Shown one piece after another: positions 7,123 through 21,106 of a stretch of DNA of 21,881 bases (position 1 is its first letter; each line of letters begins with the position of its first letter). Made by a program: the position numbers and the translations under genes. Where the stretch lies: the IMG/VR virus record IMGVR_UViG_3300032323_001577, positions 1 through 21,881 of that record. One strand, given 5' to 3'. Source of the stretch: a virus. Under the pieces are notes generated by a model that saw only the letters and a list, made by a program, of their open reading frames with translations, was not told the DNA's origin and did not search any database.

Positions 7123-7187
7123 GAAAGCATTTTTCGTCAACCGCAGTGCCTATGGAGTGAATGGTCCTGCCAGCAACAGGAGTTAGC

Positions 7188-7733
7188 ATGCGAGCGCTTA
7201 TCGTGATTGTGGCCCTCTTGGCGTCTTCAGCGTCAGCATTTGCAGAAATGTCCTCTGCCGAGTTCTTTGCGCGTGACAGGTCGGGAAACTGGAGTGAAAG
7301 CCACACCCAGACCGCCACACCAGCCCCCGCAGCGCGGGGCGAAGTGCAGAAGATCGTCGCCCGGCAGGCGGCGCAAAAGCTGGGTCCACAGTGGGTGGAT
7401 ACCGCCCTACGCATAGCTAAATTGGAAAGCGGGTTTAACTGCCGCGCCACCGGCCCATCCACCCGCCACGGGCGTGCGAGGGGCGTGATGCAGGTCATGC
7501 CGGGGTCCGCGAGAGGGCTGGGGTACAACCCCTCTAGGCTCCACGAGTGCGAGTATGGCGTGGCCGCCGGAATTTCTCATATGGAGATGTGCATCAGGCA
7601 CGGCGTCCGCACGACACAGGAAATGGCTCGGTGCCATGTGGCGGGCGTCGGTGGATGGAACAAGAAGCTCAATCGCAACGCCGAGCGGTACAAGCAGCGT
7701 TATGCGGCTATGATTACAGCGAGAAGGATGTAA
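7188..7733 (+). CDS. secreted SLT-family lytic transglycosylase
   Basis: A 181-aa protein. Residues 1-19 form a signal peptide (Arg, then LIVIVALLASSASAFA), so it is exported to the periplasm. The SLT fold is marked by the catalytic Glu80 in AKLESGFN, GVMQVMPGSARGLG (99-112) and AGVGGWNKK near the C-terminus. Four Cys outside the catalytic motifs may form disulfides. It would cleave peptidoglycan glycans, either as a Sec-dependent endolysin or to aid infection. The start is ATG 7188 with AGGAG nearby; the in-frame ATG at 7161 would spoil the signal peptide. It ends the rightward transcript. Confidence 0.85.
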   Translation: MRALIVIVALLASSASAFAEMSSAEFFARDRSGNWSESHTQTATPAPAARGEVQKIVARQAAQKLGPQWVDTALRIAKLESGFNCRATGPSTRHGRARGVMQVMPGSARGLGYNPSRLHECEYGVAAGISHMEMCIRHGVRTTQEMARCHVAGVGGWNKKLNRNAERYKQRYAAMITARRM

Positions 7734-8760: not shown

Positions 8761-11133
8761 TCAGATGTGCTTGTTGGCAACTTCAAGCGCCTTGGCGACG
8801 GTGTCGTCGTGCTCGTTAAGGAGCTTCTCGGTGCTGGATGTTACATGATTTTTCGCCGTCTTGGCGAGTTCGCGAAGGTTCACCGCGCCGCCTGTCGCTC
8901 GGGCGGGGCGCTGCTGCTCTCGCTCCATATTGCGAACATGCTGGTCGTAAGCCGTCGCCAGTGTGGTGTTCATGCGATTGAACACGCGCCGGGCGACTGC
9001 GTTTTCCTCGACCAGTCGAGCCAACTGAGCCACCTGACTGGGCTCGTTTGAGAGCACCATAGGCATCATGGCGTTGGCGACACGGCGATCCGCCGCCGCG
9101 TACATGCCTTTTCCAGCAGCTCCGATGCCTGCGGCGATCAGTGCCTTTGTGATTGTCTCCGGCGGAAGGGCCGCCTGCATCTGGATGATGTTGGGGAGGT
9201 TGTCCACCGCCGCAGCGGTCAGTCCAGCGGTAACACCAACCGTCCCGGCGGTGGGGCCACCAGTAGCAGGGCGCATTTGCGGGAGGCGGCGAAGAACGTC
9301 CTCCGCTATCACAGATCCTGCGATCTGGTAATACCGGTCATCGCCAAGAACAGTGCGCATGTCGCGCTGGAAATTTCTATCGTTGCGGAACTTATTGGCT
9401 AGGGGGCCAATGTTTCCACTCATAGCCCTCTGCGAGATGGCGTGAGCCACACCAACGCGCAGGGCCTCCTGATTTTCAGGAGGCATTGACTGAAACTCGC
9501 GCTTCACATCCCCGCGCTTAAACGGGTTCTGCTGCGCCGAGAAAAGAGACTGGGCGAAGTTGAAGCCGGCCTCTGGCGCGCTTTCCCCCTGAAACGTCCT
9601 GCGGCTCACGCCTAGAGCCGTCTCGTACTCCGGAACGACACGATAGATCCTCTGTCGAAGCTCGTTGCGGATCTTTAAATGTTCGCTTGCAAGATCATTG
9701 AGGCCCTTGCGCTTAGCCTCTTCAATCATATCCCCGAATTTTTGATCAACCTTGTGCCAATAGCTCAAATTGCCATCGATAACTTGCGCAGGGCGTCCGG
9801 AAGAGCCCTGTTGCATCCGCAACCCTTGCGGCGTTTGAACAATCTTGCTCTCAACGGCTGGGACGGCAGAAATCTCCTGAAACGGCTTGATGTTGAAGCT
9901 GGTCAGTCCTTCAGCGGAAACATTCGCCTCTTTCATTGCCTCCTGCATGGAGCGCGTGCGCATCAGGTCGCGCAAGATGTCGCTCGGAATGTTATCCGCA
10001 ACCGGATTGGCGCGAGCGAGGCCGAACACGATGTCTCGGGTGATATTGCCCTGTTCACGCTTAAATTGCGTAAACGCATCCGCATCCACAGGTCGGCCAA
10101 CCGCAGACGCGACAGTTTGATCAACCCTGTCGCCTGCTTGGCCAGCACGCTCCGCCATATCGGCATTGAACTGGGCGAGGCGCGTCTGGTTAAGAGACGA
10201 AGTCCCGGCCTTTTTCTGAATCAGGAGCATGGTCTCTGGACCCGCCATGTCTGTCAGAGTGACAGGGCGGCCCTCATTGATCGCCTGCCGAACCTGCTCC
10301 GGCGTCATGCGCAACTGGCCTTTGCTCTGGTCTCGCAAAAGAGCGTCAGCAATCTCGTCACGGGCGGTGGCCGCCGGCAAAAGCGTGTTGGCGGCCTTGG
10401 CCCCAGCGAACCCGCCGCCAAGAGCCGATACGAGCCGCCAGAAAGGCTCGTTCTCTTGCCCCTTCGTAATCTGCCCAGCGGTTTCTCCAGCCGCTCCGGC
10501 GGCTGCGCCAGTCAGCACACGGCCAGCCATAGTACGGACGCCTCCGGGAAGGCCCGTGACGCCGCCCATGACGGCCTCTTCCGCCACCTTGCCGTAGGGC
10601 GTCTCCGGCTCACGAGCCAGCAAAGGCAACTGCGTTCCGAACAGCTCCGGGCGAGCCTTCAGCTCTTCCCGTGTCCCTTTGAACGTCGGTTGGCCTGAGT
10701 AGGGGGACACGCTCCCAGCCCTCTGCTCAGGTGTCAGCTCAAGACCAAAGAGCGGAGCCTCGCGACGCTTCTGCGCCTCGGCAGGCGAAATAATATCCGC
10801 CTTTTCCATGCCGCTGTAGAAAAGATTTCGCCCCAGTGTGGGGAGATCGTAACCGACCGTGCGCTCAACACTGCCGGCTGCTCCGCGCATGAGGGAGGGA
10901 ACCGAGCGCCCGGCCTCGGCGAGCATGCTCATGCCTATATCGCCAAAAGTAGACTTTGTCTGTTCGAGCTTTTGCTCTGGCGTGGAGGGCGGAGCAGGTG
11001 GTTCAGGGTCCGTAAACTGAAGTGTCCCCTCAATGATACCCGTTGCCGGCTGCGACTGCTCTCGGCGTGGTGCAGCATCGATGAACTCAAGAGGCCCGCT
11101 GATGAGCTGCGCCATCTGCATTTTATCAGCCAC
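8761..11133 (-). CDS. putative internal virion (ejection) protein
   Basis: A 790-aa protein. The start is set at GTG 11133, which has AAGGAG 7 nt upstream and overlaps the previous stop by 8 nt; the frame is open further upstream without such a site. The N-terminus is Pro-rich. Ala/Gly-rich stretches (VLTGAAAGAAGETAG and a later VTAGLTAAAV) may be membrane-active. Most of the rest is helical with charged repeats. The C-terminus RPARATGGAVNLRELAKTAK, ending in DDTVAKALEVANKHI, recurs in large phage proteins of alphaproteobacteria. Size, helicity and position between a hydrolase-bearing virion protein and the fibre suggest a protein ejected with the DNA. No enzymatic motif was found. Confidence 0.7.
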   Translation of the reverse strand: MADKMQMAQLISGPLEFIDAAPRREQSQPATGIIEGTLQFTDPEPPAPPSTPEQKLEQTKSTFGDIGMSMLAEAGRSVPSLMRGAAGSVERTVGYDLPTLGRNLFYSGMEKADIISPAEAQKRREAPLFGLELTPEQRAGSVSPYSGQPTFKGTREELKARPELFGTQLPLLAREPETPYGKVAEEAVMGGVTGLPGGVRTMAGRVLTGAAAGAAGETAGQITKGQENEPFWRLVSALGGGFAGAKAANTLLPAATARDEIADALLRDQSKGQLRMTPEQVRQAINEGRPVTLTDMAGPETMLLIQKKAGTSSLNQTRLAQFNADMAERAGQAGDRVDQTVASAVGRPVDADAFTQFKREQGNITRDIVFGLARANPVADNIPSDILRDLMRTRSMQEAMKEANVSAEGLTSFNIKPFQEISAVPAVESKIVQTPQGLRMQQGSSGRPAQVIDGNLSYWHKVDQKFGDMIEEAKRKGLNDLASEHLKIRNELRQRIYRVVPEYETALGVSRRTFQGESAPEAGFNFAQSLFSAQQNPFKRGDVKREFQSMPPENQEALRVGVAHAISQRAMSGNIGPLANKFRNDRNFQRDMRTVLGDDRYYQIAGSVIAEDVLRRLPQMRPATGGPTAGTVGVTAGLTAAAVDNLPNIIQMQAALPPETITKALIAAGIGAAGKGMYAAADRRVANAMMPMVLSNEPSQVAQLARLVEENAVARRVFNRMNTTLATAYDQHVRNMEREQQRPARATGGAVNLRELAKTAKNHVTSSTEKLLNEHDDTVAKALEVANKHI

Positions 11134-14100
11134 GGGCGGACTCCTTTTCGCGACGAAGCTGCTGCACCCTAGCCGGGTCAATGCCGAAATAGCGCAGGCT
11201 GTTTGCTCCAAACTGATCAGCAAACTGCAATATCTGATTTGCCGGAAGCTGAGCAGCGTTCTTCGCTATATACTCAAATGCTGTCATTGGTTGGCCACCA
11301 GCAGTTCTTGTGCCGGGGATCAGCTTATTCATCATGGTTTCAAGGTTCTTGCGGTCCTCCGCAAAGAATGCCTCGCCATAGCGGCGGTCAAACTCTTGGT
11401 TGGCCTCTTGGCCAGTCAAGCGAGCGTAGTCAGAGAATACGCCACGCTCTCCGCCCGGAGCCGTAGATCCCGCCTCAATCCACTGCGAGAACCAGCGGTC
11501 CTTGTCGATGTTACGCTGCGTGTCAGTAAGAACCTTGGCGAGGATTTTACGCTGACCTTCCGGCGCGTTTCTCAGGCTGACAAGGCTCTTGGCCATTTCT
11601 TCGAGCGCTGCAACAGCGCGCTGCCCGGCCTCGGAGGTGGTCTGGTCGCGAAGCTTTTTGATCTCTTTCTCAGCGCTTTCGCGCGAGGCGAGAATTTCAG
11701 GGTCAATGACCGCCCCAATCCGACCAGTGGCAACCTCGACGAGGTTGTTCATCGCGGCGATATACGGCCCTATGGCCTGCGTGAAGGGGCCGCTCGTGCC
11801 GAGGCTCTGCCCACGAGGCAGAGAAAGGATCGTTGCCGTCAGGGGCAGGGTAGCCTGAATGACGCCCTGAGAGGCCGTAGCCGCCGCCCTCTGGGGCTGA
11901 AAGAAGTCGCTCTTCCTGCGGTCCTCAAGGGACTGGCGGCCTTCAAGCGAAACCCGACGCGCCAGCTCAAATGCGCTGGTGCGATCTTCCGGGGAAAGCT
12001 CAACGGCTGTTGGAATGCCGCTTGGGCGAGTTGCGCCGGCCTCCGAGGGCACTGGCCTGCCCGGCTGCTCTGTAGTGGTAGCCGGGGGCGCGGGTCCGCC
12101 AGCAGGAGGCTGCTGCGTGCCGGTGGCTCCAGCCGCAACCGATGGAGCTGCCTGCTTGCGATACGTCGGCTCGATTGACTCCAAATACTCCCTGAAGCGC
12201 GGATCAACCGGCGGGCGCTTGTCGCGGGGAAGCGAGAAGTAGTCCGCAAAGCCCATGGTGCCGTAGCTGCCATCCGGCTTGAGGAAGCGAACCATGCCGC
12301 GACCGGCGTACTCAAAGAACGCCTTCTGGGAGATGTCGGCCATCTGGGCCTCAGTCCGCGCCCGGCTCTCGCCCATCTCCTGCTGTTGCTTCTGGAGGGC
12401 GGTGTAGGCCCCTGTGCCGCCCACCAAGCCCTCGCCAACCGCGCTGGCAAGATAGGGCGACCGAGAAGACAGCATTGAACCAATGCCGGCGAGAACAGGA
12501 ACCACGAAGTTCTCAGAGGTTAGCGCCTTCTGTGTCGGCGTTCCCTCACCCTCCATGCCAAACGCTCGGCGGGCGAGCGTCAGGAACGGCGCGGAGGCCG
12601 GGTCCATCGGGCCGCGACCGGGGCCAGCGACGCCGGGCGTCACGCGCTCGGCAACGACGCCGGTGGGGCTGGATGCCCGCACGACCCCAGCGGGACGCGC
12701 GCCACCGACATCAACGCCGCGAACAATTCGCGTCGGCCCGAAGTCAGTGTACTCGCGATCCTTCGCCCACGAGGGGACGGGCTCGCGGTCGCCACGATCT
12801 CGCGCCAATTGAGCCTGAGCTGCGGGGGCATAAAAATGCAACGCCCCGCCAGTGATGTCCTCGCCACCCCGCGCAGCAGTAAGAGCGTCGCGCGCCATCT
12901 GGAAGCGGGGGCTGTCGGCTGCGTATCTCATTGGATAGTTTGGCGCTTCCGGGTTCGACCATGGCTCAAACTGCTGAGGAGCCTGAACTACGCCCCTATA
13001 TGCATCGCCCCACCGACCAGAGGCGCGACGGTTCTCAATCACATGAGCAATCGCTCGCGCCTCTTCAGGATTGCCGCCGCTCATCTCTGCTGCAATCGTC
13101 CTGATGGCGTAGTCTTCGTCAGACATGCCGTCGTTGGCCGGAGACCCACCAGACTGATAGCCCTGTCGAGGCGCAAGGCCAGCCGCCACGTCGGTGGCGC
13201 GCTTGTAATCGACCATCTTGAGGCCACCGAGCCCGGCGACCGCGTCGCCATGGCCATTGTGCTCCAGATCCTGCGCCATGAGGCCGAGCTGGGTCTTGGG
13301 CGAGCCCTTCATGTTGTAGCGATAGATCGGCTGGCCGTCGTAAAGTTCGCCGACCGGCTCGATGTTGTCCTTCATGCGGGCGTCAGACATCGAGAAAATG
13401 GTCGCGCCAATTTTGGCGAGGTTCGCAATGTCGCTAAGCCCGCTACCACCAGAGCTGGAGGGCAAGGATGCAGGCTTCAGCAGCTCATGCTTCTGCTCAT
13501 CAGGCTCGCCAATCTTCTGCAATGGGTCTTCGCCCATGTCGCCGGTGGCGTAAGGCAGCGCGCCGCCCATGGCGTAATCATTTCGCATCAGGCCGCCGCG
13601 ATAGGCGGGTCTTCCGAGTTGATCTAGGTCGAGCGAAGGATCGCGACCAATAGACTCGACCGCGCCGGGAAGGTTCATGGGGCTAGACGCTCGGGAGGCT
13701 TCTGCGCCACCAAGACCAGAGACGAATTTTCGCGCGCCGGAAAACGCTTCCTTGCCTGTCTTAGCAAGACCCGCAATCTTCGATCCCGTATCAAGAGCCT
13801 CGCTGAACCCAGACGGACGCTGCGCAGGCAAGCCGCCAGCCGTAACGAGCTTCGGCTGCGCAACCTGCGACTGCGGAATGTAGCCAGCCGCGCCGACACC
13901 ACCAGAGCCAAGCCCCTGACCGCCCTTGCCGCCATAGAACGCAAGCGGCTGGCCGATGGCGGCCAAGATGGCCTGCATATCTGCGGGAGCAACTATGGCC
14001 CCACCAGAAGCGTATGCGCCAGAGCGACTAACGAGGCCGCCCATAGAGTTCATATCGACCACTTTGTGGCCATTCACGTCACCAACGAGACCGGGGGCGC

Positions 14101-15073
14101 GCTCCTCGATGTCCTGTGCCATGGGGCCGACGCGCTTGGGCGGCATCGGGCGGCCCTCACGCTCGGCAGCCTCAACGTCCGCCGTGTAGTCGTAGGCGTA
14201 CAGACCATCTCCGAGGGGCTGGATGTTGGTCTTTTCGCGCTCGTCCGAGAAGAACGGAGCGGGCTGCGTTGTGGTGGTCGTAGAACCAGACAGAGCGCCC
14301 GTACCCATGGCAATGTTCGCGAGGAACTGCGCGACTTGGAACGGATACCCGCGCTCCTGAAGGAACTGGTTGTAGAGAGCCTGAAGACCGGCCTGCTGCG
14401 TCTGCTGCTCGGCAGTGCCTGCGCCAAGCTGGGCCTGCGCGCCGGCCAATGCCGCCTGCTGCCCCTGAGCGCCGAGGCCGCCGAGCTGCTGGCCGGCAGC
14501 CAACTGGCGCTGGAGATCCTGCGCGAGGACGTTCTGCTGGCCCATCGCCGTCTGAACGCCCTGCTGATAACCCTGCATCATCAGCGGCGAGATAGCCTGC
14601 GCCGTGGCAAGGTTCTGCTGACCCTGAAGTTGGGCGCGCTGAATGCCCGCCCGGTCGCCACCAAACGCTCCGGCCTTGATCGCCTCGGCCTGCTGCTGGG
14701 CAAGCTGCTGCCCCTGCTGCTGCTGAAGACCCGCCAGCGTGGAGCCGACGACCGACTGCGTGAACGGGTTCTGATAGTAGCCGATCTGCTGCTGCGTCAG
14801 CGGCCCGACACCCTGAGCGCCACCAAGCGTAAGCCCGGCGGCGGTCTGGAAGTACGGCTGGGTCATCCCAGCCGCCTGATTGATGTTTTGAATAGCTGAC
14901 TGCTGCGTCTGTGTCAGCGGCGCAACGAATGCGCTGGGGTCTTGACTGTAAGCCTGAAAAGGCTGCGCGGCAGCGGTTTCCGCTCGCGTGTTAACGGCGT
15001 TGTAACGCGCCATAACCTCTGGCGGGATCTGAACCTGCTGGGTAGCTGTTTGGGTCTTTCCGCCGCCGCTCAT
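11126..15073 (-). CDS. 1315-aa virion fusion: Q-rich coiled coil, two S74 chaperone modules, SleB-like cell wall hydrolase
   Basis: Domain order: residues ~90-250 are Gln/Ala-rich (QQQ runs), predicted coiled coil. At ~276-345 is a peptidase S74-like intramolecular chaperone module (SDEREKTNI, later PMAQDIEE). At ~351-520 is a Gly-rich linker. At ~563-625 is a second S74 module (SDARMKDNI, LMAQDLEH). At ~648-786 is a SleB/CwlJ-like hydrolase with AEMSGGNPEEARAIAHVIENR-type sequence and likely catalytic Glu663. Residues ~790-1315 are helical and Pro-rich. S74 domains normally sit at the C-terminus of fibres and cleave themselves off; here both are internal. The hydrolase may open the wall during injection, as T7 gp16 does with another enzyme. 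GAGGGG 5 nt before ATG 15073 supports the start. Confidence 0.85.
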   Translation of the reverse strand: MSGGGKTQTATQQVQIPPEVMARYNAVNTRAETAAAQPFQAYSQDPSAFVAPLTQTQQSAIQNINQAAGMTQPYFQTAAGLTLGGAQGVGPLTQQQIGYYQNPFTQSVVGSTLAGLQQQQGQQLAQQQAEAIKAGAFGGDRAGIQRAQLQGQQNLATAQAISPLMMQGYQQGVQTAMGQQNVLAQDLQRQLAAGQQLGGLGAQGQQAALAGAQAQLGAGTAEQQTQQAGLQALYNQFLQERGYPFQVAQFLANIAMGTGALSGSTTTTTQPAPFFSDEREKTNIQPLGDGLYAYDYTADVEAAEREGRPMPPKRVGPMAQDIEERAPGLVGDVNGHKVVDMNSMGGLVSRSGAYASGGAIVAPADMQAILAAIGQPLAFYGGKGGQGLGSGGVGAAGYIPQSQVAQPKLVTAGGLPAQRPSGFSEALDTGSKIAGLAKTGKEAFSGARKFVSGLGGAEASRASSPMNLPGAVESIGRDPSLDLDQLGRPAYRGGLMRNDYAMGGALPYATGDMGEDPLQKIGEPDEQKHELLKPASLPSSSGGSGLSDIANLAKIGATIFSMSDARMKDNIEPVGELYDGQPIYRYNMKGSPKTQLGLMAQDLEHNGHGDAVAGLGGLKMVDYKRATDVAAGLAPRQGYQSGGSPANDGMSDEDYAIRTIAAEMSGGNPEEARAIAHVIENRRASGRWGDAYRGVVQAPQQFEPWSNPEAPNYPMRYAADSPRFQMARDALTAARGGEDITGGALHFYAPAAQAQLARDRGDREPVPSWAKDREYTDFGPTRIVRGVDVGGARPAGVVRASSPTGVVAERVTPGVAGPGRGPMDPASAPFLTLARRAFGMEGEGTPTQKALTSENFVVPVLAGIGSMLSSRSPYLASAVGEGLVGGTGAYTALQKQQQEMGESRARTEAQMADISQKAFFEYAGRGMVRFLKPDGSYGTMGFADYFSLPRDKRPPVDPRFREYLESIEPTYRKQAAPSVAAGATGTQQPPAGGPAPPATTTEQPGRPVPSEAGATRPSGIPTAVELSPEDRTSAFELARRVSLEGRQSLEDRRKSDFFQPQRAAATASQGVIQATLPLTATILSLPRGQSLGTSGPFTQAIGPYIAAMNNLVEVATGRIGAVIDPEILASRESAEKEIKKLRDQTTSEAGQRAVAALEEMAKSLVSLRNAPEGQRKILAKVLTDTQRNIDKDRWFSQWIEAGSTAPGGERGVFSDYARLTGQEANQEFDRRYGEAFFAEDRKNLETMMNKLIPGTRTAGGQPMTAFEYIAKNAAQLPANQILQFADQFGANSLRYFGIDPARVQQLRREKESARG

Positions 15074-15087
15074 ATTAGCCCCTCTGC

Positions 15088-15579
15088 TTACTCAGCCGCC
15101 TCGCGCCACTGGCCCGTCCGAACGCCGTACAAAAAATAAGCCCCAGAAGCTTTGCCGAAGATCCGCTCATACATCCGGATCTTCCCTTCTGTCCGATGAT
15201 TGGAAAGGACGCCAATAGTTAGCGGAATCCCCAACTCATCGGCCACCTTCTTCCCAAATTCACAGAGCTTTCTAGCTCTCCCGCCTTTGACGGCTCGAAA
15301 ATCTGGGTGAATAAAAACGGCACGCTCCTCAAGTATTGCCTCGTCACTATACCATATGTTGCCAATCCGCAAAAGAATGGCCCCCTGTGGCTTCTGCCCC
15401 GGAACGCCGACGATCCCTACGATCCCCTTGTCTCGATTGAGGGCCGGCCAGATCTCAGCCAACAGGCGCTCCGGATTCGGTTGTACGAAGCCGTTTTCGT
15501 TACATGCAGCAAGCGCCAGATCCATGATGTCGTACACATCTTCTGGTGTGCCCACCCAAACTTTCAGTTCGTTGGCCAT
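15088..15579 (-). CDS. GNAT-like N-acyltransferase in the structural operon
   Basis: A 163-aa protein. A GNAT-like order is visible: an N-terminal helix (DVYDIMDLALAACNENG), a beta hairpin (GAILLRIGNIWYSDEAILEE), VFIHPDFRAVKGGRARKLCE (the acetyl-CoA-binding R/Q-x-x-G-x-G/A region) and a final LGVLSNHR/MYERIFGKASGAYFLYG block. Similar proteins are common beside phage tail and internal virion genes. A substrate is not predictable; modification of a virion or host protein is possible. The start at ATG 15579 has AAGGGGAG close upstream; an in-frame ATG 27 nt earlier overlaps the preceding gene. Confidence 0.75.
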   Translation of the reverse strand: MANELKVWVGTPEDVYDIMDLALAACNENGFVQPNPERLLAEIWPALNRDKGIVGIVGVPGQKPQGAILLRIGNIWYSDEAILEERAVFIHPDFRAVKGGRARKLCEFGKKVADELGIPLTIGVLSNHRTEGKIRMYERIFGKASGAYFLYGVRTGQWREAAE

Positions 15580-15598
15580 AGTGCTCCCCTTACTTGCC

Positions 15599-16150
15599 TC
15601 AGTCACGGCGAGGCCCCGGCAGTTTCTTGAGCGTACTAATGGTTTCCGCTCGGGTCTGCTTCACCCACTGGTCGAGCGCCCTGTGGCCGGCGTCCATATC
15701 GCCACCACCAGCCCAAGCAACCTCGTCCGGCGTCAGGACATACTCGCCGCCAGCCGCGACAATAGCGACAGGCTCCCCTACAGATCCGCCCTCGGCATAC
15801 GCCCCGGCTGGCGCTTTGTTAAACATCGTCTTGACGGTCCGGAACCCCGCCATCGTGTTTCCCTCGCCAAGCGCGGAAACGATGTCTGCGGGGATCACAT
15901 ACGAGCCAGACGGGACATGCATGGGCAGGTGGTCTGTGCGCCCAGCAACCGGGGAGTGAATCGGCCCGACGTGCAGCTTTGAGGCGGTGGGTGTCTGCGG
16001 CTTCGGGGGAGACATGCCACCCATAGCACGAGCCTCCCGCGCGGTCTTCAGGGCGATGGCTATCGCTTGCTTCTGGGGGCGACCAGAGTGAACCAGCTCT
16101 GAAATGTTGGAGCTGACCGTCTTCTGAGATGAACCCTTCTTGAGCGGCAT
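15599..16150 (-). CDS. conserved virion-associated protein of unknown function
   Basis: A 183-aa protein. The N-terminus MPLKKGSSQKTVSSNISELV and the following HSGRPQKQAIAIAL are a widely shared small-protein module. The middle has GRTDHLPMHVPSGSYVIPAD and GEGNTMAGF, and the end VVAAGGEYVLTP-like and LKKLPGPRRD. Proteins with this layout occur next to tail genes of alphaproteobacterial podovirus-like phages. Two xGG motifs (AMGGM ~42-46, AEGGS ~119-123) match those in the two larger virion proteins nearby. Role unknown, perhaps an assembly or ejection accessory. AGGGG precedes ATG 16150. Confidence 0.75.
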   Translation of the reverse strand: MPLKKGSSQKTVSSNISELVHSGRPQKQAIAIALKTAREARAMGGMSPPKPQTPTASKLHVGPIHSPVAGRTDHLPMHVPSGSYVIPADIVSALGEGNTMAGFRTVKTMFNKAPAGAYAEGGSVGEPVAIVAAGGEYVLTPDEVAWAGGGDMDAGHRALDQWVKQTRAETISTLKKLPGPRRD

Positions 16151-19029: not shown

Positions 19030-19698
19030 TCATCCTCCCCATGCCAAGTGAGCCTCATTCGCGGGAAGGCGAGCGCCCTTGCTCAAGTTTTCGGTTGCTC
19101 TAAGCACTTGAAGATTCCACGGAACGTGAAGGCCACTGAACCCACCACCCTTTAGCGGATGGATGTGGTCCACATGATGCTTTACACCAGTTTGCGTGGT
19201 GAGGGCAGCCGCCACATCGTACATCTCTTGGATCTGAGCCTGCTCAATCGCTGATAGCCATGAGGGCGTCGCGCACATCTTTGCGCTCCTGCGTTTCGCA
19301 GACTTTGCCGTATATGCCGTCTTGTTCTTGGAGTAATTGCTTTTGCAGTATAGTCTGGTTTTGTCTCTGTTGATTTTTCCCCACGCGGAAACTCTTTCAA
19401 TTATTTCATCCCTCTTAAGAGCGTAATAGACCTTTCGTTCCTGCAAAGTTTTATCTTTGTTTGACCAATACCGCTCACGATCTCGAAGCAAAACATGCTC
19501 CCTGTTTTTTCTTTTGTACTCTTCTCTACGAGCCAAATCTTTTTCAGGGTTGTTTTTTGCCCAGATCATAGCCTTTTCGCTATCACATGGTTTACAATTG
19601 TAATGAAGGCCGTCTTTTCTTGATCGATTGCGCGAAAACTCGGCAGCAGACTTCTCTGCTTTGCATATGCGACATACTTTTGTTGCCACACCTGACAT
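19030..19698 (-). CDS. free-standing HNH endonuclease, AT-rich insertion
   Basis: A 222-aa protein. Residues 9-12 (CRIC) and a later NCKPC make the N-terminal zinc finger of phage HNH proteins. A long Lys/Arg/Asn-rich middle follows. The C-terminal core has HHVDHIHPLKGGG, then GLHVPWNLQVL and ENLSKG, with the conserved His-Asp-His. Such genes encode homing endonucleases that cut near their own insertion site. It sits between tail adaptor and nozzle genes, which are normally adjacent. It is strikingly AT-rich and Lys-rich compared with both, so it was probably acquired separately. The start ATG 19698 follows the adaptor stop directly (TAATATG) with little ribosome site. The frame is open further upstream but inside the adaptor gene. 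Confidence 0.87.
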   Translation of the reverse strand: MSGVATKVCRICKAEKSAAEFSRNRSRKDGLHYNCKPCDSEKAMIWAKNNPEKDLARREEYKRKNREHVLLRDRERYWSNKDKTLQERKVYYALKRDEIIERVSAWGKINRDKTRLYCKSNYSKNKTAYTAKSAKRRSAKMCATPSWLSAIEQAQIQEMYDVAAALTTQTGVKHHVDHIHPLKGGGFSGLHVPWNLQVLRATENLSKGARLPANEAHLAWGG

Positions 19699-19699
19699 A

Positions 19700-20413
19700 T
19701 TAGCGACTCGGAGTTGCAATAGGCGACGGGGATTGGGACGACCAAGCTGATGATTCGTAACGCTTCCTCGCCTCTTCGACGGCTGCACCCTTCAGCAGAC
19801 CCTGATACTGGCTCTCGTAAGTGATCGCCATCTGAGGATCATCGTTCGCGCGCCCAAAGTTACGCTGGTACGCTGAGATGTAGACCATCGACGCCATTAC
19901 GAAGAGATCGGGCAGATATTGACTGATAAACGTCGTCGGGGTGCTGACCGACAGCGACGCCGGCCTGAAGGTGCCGGTAATCTCGACGCGGTACGCCTGA
20001 TCCGGGAACGGGCCGAGCAAGAACACGTTATCGTTGAAGGCGCAGTAGTATTTGGGCAGTCCAGCAGCGCTCGGCGTCCCGTACACCGCATCAAGAAACT
20101 CCTTCGTCGTCGGTAGGAGCGCGTTTCTGGTGCCGGCGTCAGGATTCACTGTGCCAGCAGGAGAAATCACATTGATCTGGTCAGTGACGACGAATGTGCC
20201 CACGGGGACGGTGATCTGTCGGCTGCCAACGACGCAGGTCTGAGTGCTGTTCGTGGTGGAGGTGAACAGGAAGTCCAAGTCGCGGTACATCCGCAACTCG
20301 GCGTAATCAATCATCATGGGCAGGATGGTCAGAAAATTGGGATCTGACTCCTCGACGACCGCCATCGTCGCGATCTGCGACTTGTAAGTTGTGTAGGTTA
20401 AGCCTGTCGTCAT
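19700..20413 (-). CDS. tail adaptor protein (SU10 adaptor / tail tube A-like)
   Basis: A 237-aa protein. TYTTYKSQIATMAVVEESDP, then FLTILPMMIDYAELRMYRDL near the N-terminus, a beta insertion (GSRQITVPVGTFVVTD) and a helical C-terminal part (LPDLFVMASMVYISAYQRNF, then MAITYESQYQGLLKGA) match the phage adaptor family. These proteins form the ring between portal and nozzle, T7 gp11-like in role. ATG 20413 is preceded by GGCGGGATCACC, a weak ribosome site. A 93-nt gap upstream contains a strong stem-loop. The C-terminal Ser/Pro tail runs to the HNH gene. Confidence 0.85.
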   Translation of the reverse strand: MTTGLTYTTYKSQIATMAVVEESDPNFLTILPMMIDYAELRMYRDLDFLFTSTTNSTQTCVVGSRQITVPVGTFVVTDQINVISPAGTVNPDAGTRNALLPTTKEFLDAVYGTPSAAGLPKYYCAFNDNVFLLGPFPDQAYRVEITGTFRPASLSVSTPTTFISQYLPDLFVMASMVYISAYQRNFGRANDDPQMAITYESQYQGLLKGAAVEEARKRYESSAWSSQSPSPIATPSR

Positions 20414-20506: not shown

Positions 20507-21106
20507 TTAGTCGCAGGCGAACTTTTTATAAGCAGCAGCGAGCTTCGTGTCGTAGGCGTTCTTTGCGTAGCCCGGACCATTGTAACCGCGAGCAAACTTC
20601 GCCCAGTCCTTTTTTTTCAGCTCATCCTGAAGGCCGGCAGACCGGATAAAGGACGCCATCTGACGAAGCTGGTTAGCTTCCGACGCGCAGGCTTGCTCAA
20701 CCATTTCCTCGACCGAGGCGCAGCCCGCCATCTTGAAGTTAGAGCCCATGATCTGACCCAGACCCCATGAGGTGGACAGTAGGGCCGCCTCCTTCTCAAT
20801 GGCGCAGGCGCGCTCGATCTCTGCGTAGACCGCATCTGACCCCTTCGGATAGGGCTTTTCGCCCCACTTGGGGTAGGCCAGCCCAGCGGACACCGCCTGC
20901 GCCAGAAGCGCCGGAGTGTCCTTTAGATGCTTGTGGAAGTGGTGCCGCTCGAACAGGGCCTTGGGCCGACCTGCTCTGTCGAAGCCAGACCCCGCAGCTT
21001 CCACGGCGATCACTGCGCGGAACGCGGCTGCTTCGACACCCAAGTCGGCAGCGATCTGGTCGATGTCCTCGTCCGTTACCTTTGCGGCTGCGCCTTTGAA
21101 ATTCAT
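20507..21106 (-). CDS. N-acetylmuramidase endolysin
   Basis: A 199-aa protein of the N-acetylmuramidase family (PF11860/DUF3380 type). Blocks: FRAVIAVEAAGSGFDRAGRP with likely catalytic Glu36, LFERHHFHKHL, then SWGLGQIMGSNFKMAGCASV and FARGYNGPGYAKNAYDTKLA. It should cleave peptidoglycan between N-acetylmuramic acid and N-acetylglucosamine. No signal peptide or membrane segment is present, so export relies on the holin just upstream, with which it overlaps by 4 nt. A GAGGGG 8-9 nt upstream of ATG 21106 supports the start. Confidence 0.9.
   Translation of the reverse strand: MNFKGAAAKVTDEDIDQIAADLGVEAAAFRAVIAVEAAGSGFDRAGRPKALFERHHFHKHLKDTPALLAQAVSAGLAYPKWGEKPYPKGSDAVYAEIERACAIEKEAALLSTSWGLGQIMGSNFKMAGCASVEEMVEQACASEANQLRQMASFIRSAGLQDELKKKDWAKFARGYNGPGYAKNAYDTKLAAAYKKFACD

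Follow-up and report, generated by a model that had tools for sequence, protein, structure and literature searches.

Little is understood of the way in which short-tailed phages package their ejection proteins and put them in order. S74 peptidases carry the catalytic motif SDxxxK (PMC10769870). Its Ser-Lys dyad corresponds to Ser911/Lys916 in the endosialidase endoNF and to Ser587/Lys592 in the eukaryotic transcription factor MYRF (PMC8326128), and is also documented in PMC3742443. In this work a viral DNA stretch of 21,881 nt (the window; positions 1–21,881 of IMG/VR record IMGVR_UViG_3300032323_001577) was analyzed. One open reading frame (ORF) on its minus strand, 11126..15073, is open throughout and encodes a fused virion protein in the ejection-protein position (1315 residues, 138.6 kDa), which carries two S74 modules inside the chain. 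On balance, we lean towards reading it as a mosaic ejection protein that would cut itself before Ser276 and Ser563.

An earlier note on this DNA, made from the letters alone, had placed two diverged internal S74 modules and a SleB-like hydrolase in this single ORF, and both the ORF and the Pfam matches bear this out. Peptidase_S74 matched two stretches of the protein (whole-protein E 1.8e-12, 47.8 bits, cut-off 22), and Hydrolase_2 gave one match at residues 672–757 (12803..13060; E 1.9e-12, 48.1 bits, cut-off 27), with phrog_15649 endolysin over residues 647–796. All parts lie on the minus strand. The Q-rich, mostly helical N-part (residues 1–275, 14249..15073) is followed by module S74-1 (residues 276–345, 14039..14248, Ser276/Lys281), a linker predicted to be largely disordered (residues 346–562, 13388..14038), module S74-2 (residues 563–631, 13181..13387, Ser563/Lys568), the SleB-like domain and a C-terminal module (residues 800–1315, 11129..12676). 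S74-1 starts with SDEREK and S74-2 with SDARMK, both of the form S-D-x-x-x-K. Counted on the plus strand, the codons of Ser276 and Ser563 end at 14248 and 13387, so that the module starts had been placed correctly. The Ser-Asp start and the trailing GG were likewise seen for both modules: GG stands at residues 345–346 directly behind S74-1, and [FY]xxGG motifs follow at residue 354 (14000–14014) and behind S74-2 at residues 639–643 (13145..13159), with a further copy at residue 500 (13562–13576). The two modules are 32% identical. Behind S74-1 there are 968 residues and behind S74-2 684, and the roughly 530 residues expected past the hydrolase were counted as about 520–560. The architecture and the Ser-Lys dyads are well supported.

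Relatives were gathered by scans of viral contigs. Removing identical proteins reduced 105 S74 proteins to 94 distinct ones, and the Ser, Asp and Lys of SDxxxK were invariant in all of their modules (121/121). With a profile from which the motif had been cut away, 138 domains were found, and SDxxxK preceded all 138; it likewise preceded 175 of 175 modules in N-part proteins pooled from 273 sources, including two scans by N-part patterns only (identical proteins removed, profile without the motif). Chance or a profile artefact as the origin of the dyad was rejected, since the motif-free profile still gives SDxxxK every time. The modules are otherwise diverse, with a mean column identity of 38% and variation at most non-motif positions. 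The invariant Ser in such diverse modules disfavours a loss of cutting, because a non-cutting domain would be expected to lose this Ser occasionally. When a profile of 92 modules was compared with solved S74 domains, it matched 3gud (E 3.9e-6), 6f45 (E 2.6e-5) and MYRF 7dc3 (E 8.9e-5).

The ratio of nonsynonymous to synonymous substitution rates (dN/dS) was 0.025–0.069 for S74-2 in five pairwise comparisons and 0–0.254 for S74-1. For the linker, the fastest evolving stretch between close relatives, it was 0.25–0.34 in the four of five comparisons where it could be computed. The two-module architecture is not a chance arrangement, because four close relatives (L001–L004) keep both modules and the dN/dS of S74-2 is low. 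On a module tree of 70 columns, in which many forks are weak, S74-1 belongs to a supported set of 22 rows that includes 12 terminal modules of stand-alone genes, and S74-2 lies elsewhere. As the two modules group apart, a recent local duplication was rejected for the window lineage.

In 24 of 25 terminal modules the chain runs just 5–20 residues past the conserved Val, and 27 residues in the remaining one. The window modules have no C-terminal trimerizing coil and do not lie at the C-terminus of the chain, both being marks of a canonical intramolecular chaperone (ICA). We assign them to a coil-less "mini-S74" type, predicted to be within the S74 sequence family and, because the C-terminal coiled coil is missing, outside the canonical ICA class. 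Genomes of relatives also encode another S74 in an ORF of its own (330–460 residues), for example G001:C1:22462-22617 in the L001 genome and in L123, L124, L127 and L132; in the last four this ORF ends in a long helix-like stretch. Because such coil-ended S74 ORFs lie elsewhere in these genomes, a single phage can have S74 of both kinds.

The relatives fall into stand-alone and fused contexts. Contig ends cut 23 of the 94 distinct proteins; of the complete ones, 25 have the module at the end, 26 have a single internal module and 20 have two internal modules. The last module of the complete proteins was followed by 1–22 or by 551–1761 residues, with no case between. The N-part also occurs in two types, counted over all pooled loci including the two N-part-only scans, with identical proteins counted once. 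Of the complete proteins of the window type (AFGGDR), 52 have a single internal module, 23 have two, 13 lack S74 and 0 have a terminal module (a further 50 are cut); of those of the stand-alone type (AFGGSR), 34 have a terminal module, 37 lack S74 and 3 have an internal one (a further 7 are cut). The earlier statement that S74 usually occupies the extreme C-terminus is true of the stand-alone relatives, but a cutting S74 inside the chain is known from MYRF (PMC3742443).

In the 37 complete S74-less stand-alone genes, the stop codon lies no more than 4 residues from the Ser position in 27/37 and no more than 10 in 30/37; in the remaining seven it is further off, from −64 to +29. The siblings that stop at the place of the catalytic Ser are stand-alone genes among L233–L303. 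A module hidden in another frame was rejected, as all frames over 1.5 kb downstream of the 37 genes gave no S74. Such genes thus naturally yield a chain whose end lies near the scissile bond, and the position of the stop is compatible with a self-releasing tag.

Behind S74-2 the relatives differ strongly. L001 has the same architecture as the window protein and is about 89% identical to it. L002 and L004 keep both S74 modules without a recognized hydrolase, and L003 carries GH108 in place of the SleB-like domain. Between the window protein and L002, 262/274 residues are identical in the N-part and 77/78 in S74-2 but only 157/461 in the C-part, with the hydrolase region nearly all gap. Because identity to L002 collapses from the hydrolase region onward, the chain has been re-assorted directly behind S74-2. 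In a census of 54 complete fused proteins, of which 46 have S74 and 8 lack it, the middle part matched SLT in 10, Hydrolase_2 in 2, and Phage_lysozyme2, GH108, SLT_3 and Phage_lysozyme in 1 each; no hydrolase was recognized in the rest. In L033/L035 the C-terminal module is a gene of its own (536 residues) behind a fused protein of 1535 residues; L033–L035 look like one phage seen in three metagenomes. The profile of this module matched no Pfam or PHROG family and no PDB sequence better than E 0.02, and a phmmer search of the whole window protein against PDB sequences gave one spurious weak match only. The gene after the stand-alone S74 protein matched SLT or CHAP in 3 of 10 relatives tested, one of these matches, that of L007, being just under the cut-off. 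The SleB-like domain is predicted to be a wall hydrolase. The window protein is a mosaic: in its type the N-part gene continues into a hydrolase cassette and a C-terminal module, and the cassette is swapped just behind S74-2.

If the window protein cuts itself, each mini-S74 would, after folding and oligomerization, use its Ser-Lys dyad to cut before its own Ser, between F275 and S276 and between M562 and S563. Without a C-terminal coil, the oligomerization for cutting would come from the helical N-part or from a capsid-internal core. The masses computed for cuts at both sites are 28.6, 29.1 and 80.9 kDa; pieces of about these sizes would be packaged and ejected, and the hydrolase piece would then open the wall for DNA passage. 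A broader proposal, which we put forward tentatively as possible, is that of a self-processing ejection polyprotein, in which the two mini-S74 modules would turn one translation product into three proteins for ejection; on stand-alone ejection proteins, this type of module would serve as an optional self-releasing assembly tag, gained or lost at the scissile Ser. The earlier note had already raised a three-piece polyprotein, an interpretation that is supported in part. Internal modules with the dyad, a Ser at the true module boundary and a fused wall hydrolase agree with this idea, and the predicted pieces match separate genes in part only: the N-part is found by itself or followed by a terminal S74, and L033/L035 have the C-terminal module as a separate gene.

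The genomic position of the fused ORF fits an ejection protein. On the minus strand the order is muramidase, SU10-type adaptor, large structural protein, small proteins, acetyltransferase-like protein, fused ORF, an ORF of 820 residues and collar fibre. The acetyltransferase-like gene just upstream (15088..15606, minus strand; phrog_1249 acetyltransferase, E 9e-4) corresponds in position to the "head assembly protein" of Sulfitobacter phage phiGT1, which is likewise acetyltransferase-like, and this order is matched in L010, L012 and L013. Just downstream lies a second large putative internal virion protein (8761..11223, minus strand; phrog_5880), where L001–L005 also have a large ORF; its listed start overlaps the fused ORF, and the true start is probably near 11120. 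The succession of acetyltransferase-like gene, S74 protein and wall-hydrolase or internal virion proteins is annotated in phiGT1 and seen in Ochrobactrum phage OH, and it recurs in a Manatee Spring phage with a fused "internal virion protein D" of 1185 residues. phrog_4287, "DNA ejection protein", covers residues 4–345 of the window protein (E 8.5e-18). Operon position and a PHROG match, two of the marks of a podovirus ejection protein, were both found. Because of the gene order and the phrog_4287 match, the window protein is assigned as an ejection-position (internal virion) protein of a short-tailed phage and not as a fibre. We infer that it would be packaged in the capsid and ejected.

Structure models were built from 27 and 92 sequences, a subset without the rows from phage records. 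The model of residues 1–660 had a mean predicted local distance difference test (pLDDT) score of 58. Both modules reached about 80–93 over most of their length (S74-1 mostly 80–87, S74-2 80–93), and the linker was mostly below 50. The N-part was helical, and no beta-rich fibre was present in this model. S74-2 modelled alone had a mean pLDDT of 72, and its top VIA match was MYRF at Z 3.9, with the next row at 2.4. In the fold search with the 660-residue model, no S74 was among the matches listed, and helical N-part matches filled the list; a T7 portal-tail chain was among the weak helical matches of the N-part at Z 7.5, tied with unrelated chains. The structural support for the S74 fold is weak, and the case is carried by the sequence profiles.

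Several observations weigh against the reading as a self-cutting mosaic ejection protein. The trimerizing alpha4 coil is absent; behind S74-2 the model has a helix of 8 residues, beyond which the chain is disordered. Among the complete fused relatives of the same N-type, 13/88 have no S74 yet remain fused, and therefore cutting is not needed everywhere. Foldseek with S74-2 alone returned nothing significant, with no S74 among the 50 matches listed, and hhalign detected no relation of the C-terminal module to the neighbour genes of OH, phiGT1 and ppBeUSDA76-2. A stop at the Ser position is also expected from plain domain gain or loss at the S74 boundary. In the characterized S74/ICA domains, trimerization is driven by a C-terminal coiled coil, which is also important for cleavage (PMC8326128, PMC3742443). 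In MYRF, the coil at the corresponding place is the main driver of trimerization (PMC8326128), and a leucine-zipper mutation leads to defective processing (PMC3742443). The missing coil, the MYRF mutant and the S74-less fused relatives would all suit an uncut structural role, in which the mini-S74 modules would serve a single long ejection protein as folded domains for assembly, their cutting having ended with the loss of the coil. We consider this rather unlikely, given that the dyad stays invariant in every pooled module despite the low mean column identity.

The other explanations account for parts of the evidence. S74-2 might be kept mainly as a conserved stretch for the exchange of wall-hydrolase cassettes between phages: the cassette differs right behind it (SleB-like in the window and L001, GH108 in L003, none recognized in L002/L004), and its synonymous rate (dS) is low (0.21–0.44), the lowest among the modules in 2 of 5 comparisons. 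However, its low dN/dS indicates selection on the protein itself, and a recombination joint leaves the invariant dyad unexplained, which makes this role quite improbable. Another candidate site of processing is the [FY]xxGG motif, which occurs 165 times in 46 complete fused proteins versus 59 times in shuffled sequence (2.8-fold enriched). Neither the N-part nor the S74 modules contain it; it sits in Gly-rich linkers and stands within 30 residues behind 50 of the 65 internal S74 modules. It may serve as a hinge or for processing, or may have been left behind by the joining of modules. That another protease cuts at these junctions, with S74 merely marking module ends, would agree with the enrichment and the placement, but no S78 prohead protease was found in the records of 15 relatives (0/15), which may be fragments, and a motif in Gly-rich linkers may be only a hinge, so that we give this very little weight. 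The database name of the stand-alone relatives, "tail fiber domain-containing protein", would suggest a tail fibre or spike of the ordinary kind, equipped with a chaperone domain. Such a role is hardly credible for a protein with a helical N-part and no beta-rich fibre in its model, whose gene is flanked by the acetyltransferase-like gene on one side and the next internal virion protein on the other; in the genomes of relatives, coil-ended S74 ORFs lie elsewhere.

The window contains some other features. Two more wall enzymes are encoded, an SLT at 7161–7733 (plus strand) and an N-acetylmuramidase at 20507–21106 (minus strand). A G-rich tandem repeat with GGCGA units and a 44-base unit occupies 239–619, and many ORFs on both strands around it look spurious; the ORF end ahead of the repeat is presumably RecA-like. 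The ORF at 19030–19788 (minus strand) has Cys pairs, overlaps neighbouring structural genes and has no Pfam match; we take it to resemble a small endonuclease.

No paper on S74 modules inside ejection proteins was found in the open-access literature searched. The coil-less mini-S74 type, the siblings that stop at the Ser and the fusion to a swappable hydrolase cassette are new here. If the modules cut, a protease built into the chain would divide the assembly of a DNA-delivery machine and set its timing, and S74 cutting would be seen to work without a coiled coil and in mid-chain. Either way the family provides natural controls, since siblings that have the module and siblings that lack it diverge exactly at the catalytic Ser.

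Compared with known systems, the window modules share a profile match and the Ser-Lys dyad with the S74/ICA domains of endoNF and phage neck appendages (3GW6, 3gud). Those domains are C-terminal on trimeric tail proteins and coil-ended, whereas the window modules are internal, doubled and coil-less. MYRF (7dc3), the top VIA match, likewise has an internal S74 with a long chain behind it and cuts itself, so an internal self-cutting S74 would not be unprecedented in principle; MYRF differs in having the coil and one module, and is not a virion protein. The podovirus ejection proteins (T7 gp14–16 and P22 homologues; PMC8954989) are alike in genome position and in a mosaic wall-hydrolase domain, but they are separate genes and the window has one ORF; the available text of this review contains no occurrence of "S74". 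phiGT1 gene 17 and OH p40 are stand-alone proteins that end in a mini-S74 and occupy the same operon position as the window protein, and they differ in having a single terminal module, with the hydrolase in a separate gene. The "internal virion protein D" of the Manatee Spring phage (MW202675) has one S74 only and other sequence behind it, but like the window protein it joins an N-part, an internal S74 and further parts in one ORF.

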